Made by a program: the position numbers and the translations under genes. Below are positions 32,113 to 36,317 of a stretch of 64,000 nt of DNA, piece after piece. Source of the stretch: Gammaproteobacteria bacterium (lineage in GTDB: Bacteria > Pseudomonadota > Gammaproteobacteria > SZUA-229); the NCBI GenBank assembly GCA_026195255.1, contig JAPHSS010000008.1:62001-126000 (forward strand), written 5' to 3'. The notes below the pieces were generated by a model. It did not search any database, had not been told where the DNA came from, and saw only the letters and a list, made by a program, of their open reading frames with translations. The first letter of the stretch is position 1, and the number at the start of each line of letters is the position of its first letter.

Positions 32113-32537
32113 TATTCTAGTTCAGTATAAATTGTAATTATTAACATTTTTCATTTTCAGGCGCTTACAGCGCATGATGTGCAGAATCCTAGAAAATTTG
32201 GTTTCTGTGCTTTCGCCGTTCTGGCGACTCACTTTTTTGCCTGCAGCCCATTTTAATAGGTCTGGAAAAGTAAGCAAAAATAGCCGCCCTTTATTCGCTA
32301 GTTCTCATAAAAAAACGATGAGAATGCCCAAAAAATCTAATGTTATTAAAAGTTATTACTCTATGCTTTGTGATTTCTACTCTGTTCCCGGGTTGTTCAG
32401 ATGCGCCATCCAGGCTTACAGAACTTTCAGAGTAATATAAATATGGTACATCCCTGTAACTTTACCCCTCGATGGAAACATTTTTTGGCTAGCTCCAGAG
32501 GGAATCAAAATCAAAACCCATACGAACTGGTTTTCAA

Positions 32538-32569
32538 CTCGTTCCCATGCTCCTGCGTGGGAATGCATA
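32538..32569 (+). repeat. Palindromic intergenic repeat, copy A
   Basis: This 32-base element has the core TTCCCATGCTCCTGCGTGGG and folds on itself through TTCCCA/TGGGAA arms. A copy in inverted orientation at 32804-32835 differs by one base. Confidence 0.75.
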
Positions 32570-32803
32570 ACTCACCAGACAACACGTATCCTACAATCCA
32601 CTTCACTCCTGTCACCAGTACCTCACTCCATAAAAAATCGGCTGCCTTAATTAAAATAAACAATATGTTGTTTACTGCGACCGGGTCTTAACTCAGCCGC
32701 TTCTTATTTATTACATGAGTGTGGTTTCACTAGTTGTATTTCAAAAGATGGAATAAGTTCTGCACCTGAAAGCGTACGGAGTGTGGGTTAGTACATCAAA
32801 ACC

Positions 32804-32835
32804 TATGCATTCCCACGCGGGAGCATGGGAACGAG
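32804..32835 (-). repeat. Palindromic intergenic repeat, copy B (inverted)
   Basis: Reading the minus strand, this copy matches copy A at 31 of 32 bases. The two copies enclose about 234 bases without a gene. Elements of this form are widespread in proteobacterial intergenic DNA. Confidence 0.75.
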
Positions 32836-33154
32836 AAAAAAATCCCCATAACGCCATTATTATGGAATTAAAATAGTCCACAATTAAGTCAGATTGGTTT
32901 TAATACAAATCGTATGTTTGAAAAGCAACACTATATAAATTATTAGAAGAAAAAAAGTTACTGAAAAACAAACAAAAACTTAAGATTACTGAGCTGATAT
33001 TCTTGGAAGAATAATGCGCGACATCACGCTTAACAAAAAATCTAAACGCTAATCACTTTATAATTAAACTGGATTACAAATACATATTGAAACAGTCTAA
33101 TCTCCCGGTGGAGCACTCCTGACAAAACGCCAGACTTTTAAAACGGTTTTCATC

Positions 33155-33985
33155 TTAATTAATATTATGAGACGTCTTTGGACCTGACGATGCTTCCTTG
33201 TGTGCAGTGTTCAAACCGCGTGCGTACATCGCCTCGATAAAACGTTCGGTTATGTCGCTGGACAGTGCACGCTCAAGGCGCACATCAATAACATAGGCCT
33301 TGATAACCAGTCGCAGGAGAAAACCGAGCTCGTAACGCGACTCCACAATAACGTTGACGGGTTTCTTTAGATAAGTATAGGGAGAAGCAATAGCTGCTTC
33401 CATTGCCAGCAGGCGCGCCTCATGAATATCAACTGTCTGTGGCAAGTCGATATTCACCACCACCATCTCTGATAGCTCACCACTATTAGCATTGGCTGCG
33501 GCATTTTCCAGAATCGATGAATTCGGCACCATCACCATATTGTCATCGAGAGTGCGTAGCATGGTCACGCTAAGATCTAGACGGGTGACTTCACCGTAGT
33601 AACCACCAAAATGCACCATATCACCTACCCGAAACGGTGGATTGAATATCATCATGATACCTGCAAGCAAGTTGCGTACACCACCCTGCGCCGCCAGTCC
33701 GACAGCAAGACCGAGTGAACCGAGTACCGCAAAAACAATCGCCTGCGGCGGCTGAAGGATGCCGAATATTATATATACGATACACAGAAACCAGGTAATC
33801 AGGCGTATCGCCGGAAACACCTGGCCCATCTGCAGGCGATAACGTGGAAAGCGATATATTGACTTCTGTAGGGCAAAATGAACAATCCGCAATAATAGCC
33901 AGGTAAGTAGTAATACAATGGCAATCAATAGTATCCGGGAGACTGAAAGCAACTCGGTGAGTTGCGCTATGATATCTGCTTCCAT
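33155..33985 (-). CDS. MscS-family mechanosensitive channel
   Basis: The 276-residue inner-membrane channel has hydrophobic segments at about 14-40, 58-80 and 83-105, and the pore-lining MscS helix VGLAAQGGVRNLLAGIMMIF. The beta domain follows with PFRVGDMVHFGGYYGEV and NVMVMVPNS-type residues (MVMVPNSSI). It should open under membrane tension and release osmolytes. It begins two bases after the AAA-like gene, so the two are coupled. G+C content here is about 51 % by sampling lines, against about 32-40 % in many neighbouring genes. Confidence 0.92.
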   Translation of the reverse strand: MEADIIAQLTELLSVSRILLIAIVLLLTWLLLRIVHFALQKSIYRFPRYRLQMGQVFPAIRLITWFLCIVYIIFGILQPPQAIVFAVLGSLGLAVGLAAQGGVRNLLAGIMMIFNPPFRVGDMVHFGGYYGEVTRLDLSVTMLRTLDDNMVMVPNSSILENAAANANSGELSEMVVVNIDLPQTVDIHEARLLAMEAAIASPYTYLKKPVNVIVESRYELGFLLRLVIKAYVIDVRLERALSSDITERFIEAMYARGLNTAHKEASSGPKTSHNIN

Positions 33986-33987
33986 AA

Positions 33988-35217
33988 TTAGTATAGGTAG
34001 TTCGTGTTAGTTAGATAACGGCTGATTACTTCAGAATAAACTGGCACCAGGCGATAGCCCAACTCGTCCGCTGTTTCATCCTTGTCTAACAAGCATTGCT
34101 GGTAAAGACGTTCCAGCAGCAGCCAGCTTTGTTCGCGGCTGGTACGAAACAGGGCGCAATGATCATCTATCGTCAGGCGACCGTGTATTGCAACTTCAGC
34201 AAGCGTAAACAATTCCTCACTGATCAGGCTTTTTAATGCACCAAAATCCAGTGCCACACTACGCGACATATCCAGTTGTTTGTTTTCAGGGTTCACCTGC
34301 AGCGCACCTAGATAATAGAAAAAAGCAAAATCCGGTTTCCCACTGCTTAACTTGTAAAGCGTGGGTAGCTCCAGTGTATCCTGCATTTCTCTGCTTTTAC
34401 TTTCCATCTCTGTGTTCAATACCACACCCGAAACCTGCTGGCGCAGCGACAGACATTCATCCAGTTCTTGCTCGTTAAACATACTGAGTTGAATTCGATC
34501 GGTAAAAAAACGCTCCGCATGATAAATATAGTTTAGCCGCCGCCAGGCAAATTCTTCGCAGCCCAGCACCCACAGGTGACGCTGCTGGGTCGCCACCATC
34601 ACCGCGCCAAAAACGCGTATTGCAGCATGCGCACCCATCACACGGCAACTGAGAAAATGGCCGTTATCAATAACCAGCACACTTGGTGGCAAATTATTAA
34701 TATGCTCGAGCAACTCATCAGTAGTGACAGCAGCCTGTTCTAAACCGATAAACTCGCTCAGTATCAGCAGTGTGTCATTAATGTCATACGGCCTGCGCGT
34801 CAGTTTACCGTAACGCAACGTATCGCCAGCACCGGCGGTTCCCTCCAGTTGCCGTAGAAATGAAGACAGACCGCAGCCCTGTGGTCCGGTGACAGCAATC
34901 ATCGAATTGTGACCTGCGCGCCACATTTCGAACGCCGCTGTCAAACGTTCAAGCTCACTCTCGCGACCAATAAAGCGAGCATCACCTGCTGCAAGGGGTT
35001 CAACCGAAAACGCCTGCAGTAGAGCACCTGGTAACTTTTTCTCCTCGTAGTAACGTGTGCGTCGCGCCGTCTGGGCCAGGCAAAGATCTGAGAGTATCTT
35101 GATCGATTCAGTGGTTTCTATAGTGCTTATGCCAAATAGTTTTAATACTTGTCGATACAGGCGAGTGCCCGCCACAGTTAACGGAGTAAAAAAAGATTTT
35201 GGTGTAGAATCATTCAT
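33988..35217 (-). CDS. AAA/ORC-type ATPase-like protein with defective Walker A, paired with MscS
   Basis: The 409-residue product has the layout of an AAA/STAND ATPase: FIGRESELERL at about 82-92 as the entry motif, a P-loop at 111-119 and a Walker B-like VLVIDNGHF at 180-188. The P-loop reads GPQGCGLSS, with Leu117 in place of the invariant lysine, and Walker B has Asn after Asp. It may bind nucleotide weakly or not at all. It directly precedes the MscS gene and may act as a regulatory subunit of the channel. The pair is G+C-richer than its surroundings. Confidence 0.8.
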   Translation of the reverse strand: MNDSTPKSFFTPLTVAGTRLYRQVLKLFGISTIETTESIKILSDLCLAQTARRTRYYEEKKLPGALLQAFSVEPLAAGDARFIGRESELERLTAAFEMWRAGHNSMIAVTGPQGCGLSSFLRQLEGTAGAGDTLRYGKLTRRPYDINDTLLILSEFIGLEQAAVTTDELLEHINNLPPSVLVIDNGHFLSCRVMGAHAAIRVFGAVMVATQQRHLWVLGCEEFAWRRLNYIYHAERFFTDRIQLSMFNEQELDECLSLRQQVSGVVLNTEMESKSREMQDTLELPTLYKLSSGKPDFAFFYYLGALQVNPENKQLDMSRSVALDFGALKSLISEELFTLAEVAIHGRLTIDDHCALFRTSREQSWLLLERLYQQCLLDKDETADELGYRLVPVYSEVISRYLTNTNYLY

Positions 35218-35639
35218 AAGTTGTGATGATTATAAAGAAAATAACGCCACTACGGAAATATATATAGCTGTCTTGTTTAATCCCCATATTCCACCTGTTC
35301 TTCTTTATATGCAGAAGTTTTATTACAGGAAGCAGTTAAACGTCGTAAATCCAGGTTACCGCACTTGTTGCCCTTCTGACATTTATCATCGTAGATGCCT
35401 GGATATTGACCATCGGCCATTCATTAAGGGATAACGTTATACCGATGATTAGTGGGTTTGATGTGCTGGAGCCTTCGAAAGAAGAAGAGGTTTGGCTGAA
35501 TAAAGATAAACTTCAGCATATCCGTAACCGTATTAACAGATGAAAAGAGAATAGTTAAAGCTAAATCATTTAGAAATGAGTAAGGCGTTTTCATATATAA
35601 AGAGCATAAACAAAAGTCTGAACATTTAAGGCAATCAAT
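35218..35639. other. Non-coding region holding a decayed gene
   Basis: This 422-base region lies between the AAA-like gene and an uncharacterised gene, both leftward. Its right part carries a frameshifted relic of a membrane protein on the plus strand (35311-35543). No promoter or terminator could be assigned with confidence. Confidence 0.5.
35311..35543 (+). pseudogene. Frameshifted relic of a small membrane protein
   Basis: Codons 35349-35541 read as a transmembrane helix VALLTFIIVDAWILTIG followed by SLRDNVIP and a charged C-terminal tail EEVWLNKDKLQHIRNRINR, ending in TGA at 35541. The frame has no start codon and is closed upstream. The frame shifted by one base upstream reads AEVLLQEAVKRRK up to the CGTCGTAAATCC run, so one missing A would join the two into a typical juxtamembrane junction. 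The family was not recognised. It is either a decayed gene or a sequencing error. Confidence 0.5.
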
Positions 35640-36317
35640 CTACGGCATATTGTCTTCTATAAACTTCTTATAATTTTCAGCACTAATTATTTGTGTACCG
35701 TCACAATTAAACTGCATACGTACTAAATTTTGCACCATACAGACGGTTATATTGCGCAAATAGAAATCAGGTAAATCACGCATGGTTTTAATGGAGGACA
35801 TAATGGTATGAATTTCATCCTTTGTCATTGGCCCCCAGGTTTGATGCCGTTTGTTAAAAATACTCTTCCAGTAGCCCGGCACCGTCTCAAATATTTTACT
35901 ACCTTTGATGGCAGCATATATATCCCGCATTGCCTGAATTTTATCTTCGAAACTTATTTTTGGAAAATGCCGATCAAGGTAGGCTTTGTCCGCAAGCTTC
36001 TCTGATGCATGAATTTCCTGACGTAATGGATCGAATATAGAATGTGTATGAATTTCACCACTATTGAAACCAATAAAAACCCGGTAACAGCTGCGATTCA
36101 ACATTAATTCTTCCAGATTATCCATAAGAGGTGTAATGACTTTATCAACCGGGCTTTCATATCGCTTGCGCACCAATGTCGTTTCCCGCAACGACGGATC
36201 ACCCTTAATGCCTATTTGCAAGCTGTCTTCATTTAGCCCTGTAGCACTAACGATACTTTCACGCAGCACCAGCTCTTCTAACTCATTATCCTGCGACGTT
36301 ATTTCTTTATCCAACAA
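35640..36317 (-). CDS. Uncharacterised protein
   Basis: I do not recognise this 225-residue soluble protein. It has a helical N-terminus (NELEELVLRESIVSATG), a middle with CYRVFIGFNSGEIHTHSIFD that is strand-rich, and a helical C-terminus (TKDEIHTIMSSIKTMRDLP). It is leftward and precedes no close partner; the PilZ gene upstream is 132 bases away. The coding call rests on length, composition and lack of a better alternative. Confidence 0.7.
   Translation of the reverse strand: MLDKEITSQDNELEELVLRESIVSATGLNEDSLQIGIKGDPSLRETTLVRKRYESPVDKVITPLMDNLEELMLNRSCYRVFIGFNSGEIHTHSIFDPLRQEIHASEKLADKAYLDRHFPKISFEDKIQAMRDIYAAIKGSKIFETVPGYWKSIFNKRHQTWGPMTKDEIHTIMSSIKTMRDLPDFYLRNITVCMVQNLVRMQFNCDGTQIISAENYKKFIEDNMP

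Follow-up and report, generated by a model that had tools for sequence, protein, structure and literature searches.

An MscS-type channel gene with a constant AAA-type neighbour lacking the P-loop lysine

Work on MscS-type channels usually treats them as tension valves that function on their own, and a fixed partner derived from an ATPase suggests an accessory subunit. In MscK an MscS pore is attached to a long N-terminal region with several membrane segments, Orc/Cdc6-like and STAND ATPases routinely include winged helices, and a P-loop without its lysine does not always lose ATP binding. Here we describe a gene pair that combines an MscS-type channel with an AAA-derived protein, found in a 64,000-nucleotide stretch of a gammaproteobacterial genome (contig JAPHSS010000008.1, positions 62,001 to 126,000), which we refer to as the window. 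The pair is undescribed in the open literature searched, a body of text with subscription journals and preprints mostly outside its scope.

The pair in the window and its insertion site

The features discussed below are as follows.

32113 to 33154, no strand assigned: left part of the insert, without a recognised gene, 37% G+C, holding a 39-nt inverted repeat (absent in genome G004)
33155 to 33985, minus strand: MscS-family channel, 276 aa, a member of the AAA-linked MscS clade (PF00924, hydropathy, clade test)
33988 to 35217, minus strand: AAA-derived partner protein, 409 aa (ORF, Pfam, family alignment, dN/dS)
34861 to 34887, minus strand: P-loop GPQGCGLSS of the partner, residues 111-119, with Leu at position 117 (from the translation; coordinates counted manually from the start of the ORF)
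35218 to 35639, no strand assigned: right part of the insert, without a recognised gene, 36% G+C
35640 to 36317, minus strand: right flank, an intact conserved 225-aa gene of unassigned family, outside the module (same-genus orthologues, dN/dS)

As the initial annotation had it, the partner ORF ends 2 bp before the MscS ORF. Both lie on the minus strand at these coordinates. The channel matches PF00924 with E=1.2e-17 (64.2 bits against a cut-off of 20.2) and has three hydrophobic segments, at residues 18-36, 59-77 and 81-99, as judged by hydropathy alone. Its match to PF21088 is below the cut-off, and in Pfam it has no match up to E=1 to the C-terminal alpha-beta domain PF21082, which does match a general MscS paralogue in locus L043. 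The channel-family profile aligns over almost its whole length with the MscS chain 3udc. Opening under membrane tension is a property of the MscS family, and would be assigned to the window channel by family.

The partner begins with a short N-terminus without membrane segments, followed by a domain of the AAA_16/AAA_22 type, and ends in the tail NTNYLY. Its Pfam matches (AAA_16, E=1.5e-6; AAA_22, E=7e-4) are both under the curated cut-off, and at E 0.01 each of the two profiles matches 16 of 19 family members. The C-terminal region contains a probable winged helix, with weak matches to an ArsR chain (E=0.0028) and a MarR chain (E=0.0041) in one profile search of PDB sequences; the partner in L046 has weak HTH matches in Pfam. 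An AlphaFold2 model of the partner, from the window protein plus that of L003, reached a mean pLDDT of 33, so the assignment of the fold rests on sequence profiles.

The pair differs in composition from its surroundings. The initial annotation estimated about 51% G+C, a figure that proved too high: we measure 48.5% for the AAA gene and 47.9% for the MscS gene against 39.7% for the window, which places them first and second among 55 window genes, and by codon-usage distance they rank 3 and 1 respectively among 35. At five other loci the G+C of pair and flanks agrees to within 2 points, and in L013, the nearest of the full relatives whose pair is readable, the values are 58% in the pair and 56% in the flanks. 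In G004, a genome of the same genus, the genes flanking the insert are about 19 bp apart where the window has 3.5 kb, and their order is that of the window (DctQ-DctM-TerB/DnaJ-small ORF, then the 225-aa gene-PilZ-protease-NUDIX). The empty site is shown by G004 alone, as the contig of G001 begins immediately to the left of the gene, and the left neighbour in G003 is different. Among four other genomes of the genus the AAA gene is found in G002 only, and a single-sequence query gave no match in 49 other genomes of the family, several of which are incomplete. Inspection of the insert by eye shows no clear duplication of its target. Acquisition of the pair by transfer, as had been suggested, is well supported by G+C, codon usage, the empty site in G004 and the patchy distribution, and a relative richer in G+C would be the source.

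The two flanks were described less accurately. The repeats reported on one side amount to one 39-nt inverted repeat (32531-32569 and 32804-32842, 90% complementary); there are no tandem repeats. The inverted repeat bounds a 312-bp stretch (32531-32842) that looks like a small mobile element, is missing in G004 together with the whole insert, and has an end motif that occurs within the window only at its two arms. The gene on the other side, taken to be broken, is intact: it starts with TTG and has an orthologue of 224-225 aa with the same start in three genomes of the genus; a fourth genome has an ORF of 249 aa. Its dN/dS is 0.037 against the closest orthologue, and it has no match in Pfam or NCBIfam.

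Linkage and co-inheritance of the two genes

Whether the two genes are linked elsewhere was a test set beforehand, and the pair is kept in all 29 readable loci, the window included: at 29 of 29 loci readable on both sides the AAA gene lies directly upstream of the MscS gene on the same strand. The gap between them ranges from -131 to +47 bp, the lower value reflecting an over-long ORF start in L018. These loci come from several searches. A protein search of 369 genomes of the same class gave ten with a match, counting the window's own, and seven of the nine others hold full relatives. Left out of the counts were the match in G105, which lies on an acyltransferase ORF and is a chance match, and that in G352 (L012), which is DamX-like and has no MscS gene in its vicinity. 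When 398 genomes of the phylum were searched with a profile, 12 had matches, again including the window. In a profile search of 177 genomes of the order of G634, 50 passed the 1e-8 limit; the 18 kept as clear members, ten of them new, score 8.7e-50 or better, and the best matches of the 32 that were dropped fall between 5.8e-11 and 1.0e-8. Comparably weak matches of further searches were also dropped, and the count of 29 covers clear members alone. L003 in G002, whose AAA protein is 93% identical to that of the window, ends at the contig end, where the pair is unreadable, and stands outside the 29.

No third gene is constant beside the pair in the 12 loci inspected. Genes of sugar and pentose-phosphate metabolism (including glucokinase, transaldolase, sucrose-phosphate phosphatase, glucan phosphorylase and ribose-5-phosphate isomerase) adjoin the pair or sit near it in several distant loci (L013 7752-8777, L014 3233-4351, L015 4335-5174 and 7343-9043, L040 2430-3092, L106 6611-7273); they are absent beside the pair in the window, and we set them aside as a clue to function. 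In L043 (8071-10984) the pair is followed by a TrkA-N/ion-channel gene and two more MscS genes, which makes a run of channel genes.

A quick tree with 36 paralogues from the same 12 genomes places all 29 linked MscS proteins in a single clade (SH-aLRT 96). There are 71 MscS matches in these genomes, 12 of them linked, and the 36 are those of the 59 non-linked ones for which DNA was fetched. The AAA and MscS trees have 21 of 26 splits in common (patristic r=0.95); the conflicting splits are mostly of modest support, the strongest being the placement of L016 (96/89 in the AAA tree), and comparison of the AAA part with the channel reveals no visible swapping of partners. On these tree comparisons the two genes are one inherited unit. 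As a candidate docking site we considered the MscS residues specific to the clade, of which 12 of 17 are in the cytoplasmic alpha-beta domain, yet the corresponding figure is 15 of 20 in one control clade of paralogues and 5 of 13 in another. As one of the two control clades is equally concentrated, these residues add no support.

The nucleotide site of the partner

It had been noted that leucine replaces the P-loop lysine in the window partner, and this is so: position 117 of the motif TGPQGCGLSS is leucine, G111, G114 and G116 are retained, and there is no compensating lysine in the loop. Walker B was likewise described as altered, which applies to part of it. In VLVIDNGHFL the Mg-binding aspartate D184 is intact and the second acidic residue is asparagine. 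By alignment the second acid is replaced by N, the sensor 1 position holds E and the sensor 2 position D, given the roles that we take the Walker B and sensor positions to have. Comparison of the AAA gene with that of L003 gives dN 0.033, dS 0.449 and dN/dS 0.073 (0.063 for the AAA part), which indicates that the lysine-less protein is maintained and not decaying.

Local decay, or misassembly of one genome, is ruled out by the rest of the family. The lysine is missing from the closest orthologues L003 (93%), L013 (60%) and L014 (41%) and from 22 of the 29 members; it is present in seven distant ones only (L016, L018, L019, L041, L043, L044 and L045). The clade of the window has an aliphatic residue (L, I, V or M) at this position in 10 of 10 members, a second large lysine-less clade has T, S or A (10 of 10), and two further lysine-less members carry R. 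The Walker B aspartate is retained in 28 of 29, including every member that lacks the lysine, and the P-loop glycines G114 and G116 are found in all 29 once L108 is read by eye. For L108 the alignment hinted at a deletion in the P-loop, but the protein reads APAGAGLSA; it enters the lysine-tree and sensor tables with the misaligned letter I, which leaves the lysine count unaffected. The lysine, Asp-Glu or Asp-Asp, Asn and Arg occur together only in L018 and L019, and the sensor positions are degenerate across the rest of the family.

All 12 short partners (392-467 aa) are without lysine, and the seven lysine-bearing ones are among 17 long forms (670-1089 aa). Membrane segments are predicted in six of these seven and in L016 there are none (by hydropathy, which covered 19 of the 29 members). 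The partner in L016 (4442-6817), of 791 aa and with the lysine, has a long extra N-terminal region and a Walker B that begins with Glu.

The distribution of the lysine requires three changes on the AAA tree, forced by well-supported branches, and two on the channel tree. Read most simply these would be two or three losses. The trees alone are neutral between loss and gain, and we prefer losses as recovery of a complete P-loop is far less probable. The lysine is retained in all 26 background AAA matches that the searches gave, although this is a biased control in which the short matches centre on the P-loop.

Possible roles and relation to known systems

We read the pair, with modest confidence, as a channel and its dedicated AAA-derived partner, a protein that is no longer a normal ATPase and is probably a regulatory or scaffold subunit. 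Linkage, co-inheritance, the absence of the lysine across the clade, purifying selection and insertion relative to a same-genus genome are what the sequences support; we infer that partner and channel are in contact, that ATP binding is lost, that gating is regulated and that the change ran from ATPase to non-ATPase. A cytoplasmic protein derived from an AAA-type ATPase would have become dedicated to an MscS-type channel, and in the lineage of the window it would be a soluble partner of 409 aa without the lysine, catalytic acid or sensor residues, yet still under selection. Most likely this protein would bind the cytoplasmic side of the channel and set its opening threshold or its desensitisation without hydrolysing ATP. 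Against this, tight linkage is no proof of contact, and the Walker B aspartate in 28 of 29 members is unexpected in a wholly inactive site and leaves room for residual nucleotide binding.

That aspartate, the conserved G114 and G116 and the seven members with lysine would suit a partner in which a non-canonical site continues to bind ATP and which signals the energy state to the channel, loss of the lysine having removed hydrolysis only. We consider this unlikely, notwithstanding these residues, given the window P-loop without a compensating lysine, the aliphatic residue throughout its clade, and the loss of the catalytic acid and sensor residues. The last of these also suits a remodelling machine badly, and bears on the suggestion that the partner serves as a chaperone or assembly factor in folding or insertion of the channel and has no part in gating. 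Constant linkage, co-inheritance, AAA ancestry and a partner gene that comes first would agree with such a factor, but ordinary MscS has no known requirement for one, and we regard it as improbable.

About equally improbable in our view is transcriptional control of the channel gene by the partner as a DNA-binding regulator built of an AAA domain and a winged helix. This would account for the matches of the C-terminal region to ArsR and MarR chains, but winged helices in the ATPases named at the outset do not imply DNA binding, and the membrane segments of many long members would be unusual in a soluble regulator. A defence or suicide module, in which a STAND-like sensor opens a membrane pore, would fit the patchy distribution, the transfer and weak nSTAND profile matches. 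We think it very improbable: PADLOC gives no convincing match for the two window genes (L016 and L046 have weak P-loop matches, best E 2.5e-5), the identified neighbours of the inspected pairs are housekeeping genes such as those for glucokinase, transaldolase and rpiA, and a STAND sensor would hardly be expected to lose its nucleotide switch repeatedly.

Returning to the dedicated channel partner, we put forward a wider proposal only tentatively, namely that the family is a class of tension channel with an AAA-derived subunit that changed from an ATP-driven to a nucleotide-independent regulator in two or three lineages. If so, its members would make up a natural gradation, on a single channel, between ATPase and pseudo-ATPase. 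Partners with and without the lysine on one channel clade would provide a clean test of the role of ATP, if any, in channel tuning, and the family also allows a test of the change from ATPase to pseudo-enzyme.

Among known proteins, the best match of the partner profile outside the family is the DamX-like protein of G352 (L012; 58 bits), of the DamX/ExeA type with an AAA_22 domain, whose identity as DamX is our reading of its layout and the genes around it; it differs in having the canonical lysine and no adjoining MscS gene. Orc/Cdc6-like and STAND ATPases would share the order of an AAA module and then a probable winged helix, with weak profile matches, whereas the partner has a nucleotide site that is not conserved and a channel gene as constant neighbour. 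The longest linked systems resemble MscK/MscM in that an MscS pore comes together with several membrane segments (by hydropathy) and a long N-terminal region, but here the large membrane part belongs to the AAA-bearing protein, which is separate from the channel, and the long partner forms scanned have no MscS-type Pfam domain. The channel itself is like the MscS small-conductance channels in its PF00924 beta domain and three hydrophobic segments, its best solved relatives by profile being 3udc, 3t9n and 4age, and differs from them in belonging to a separate deep clade with a constant AAA-type partner gene.
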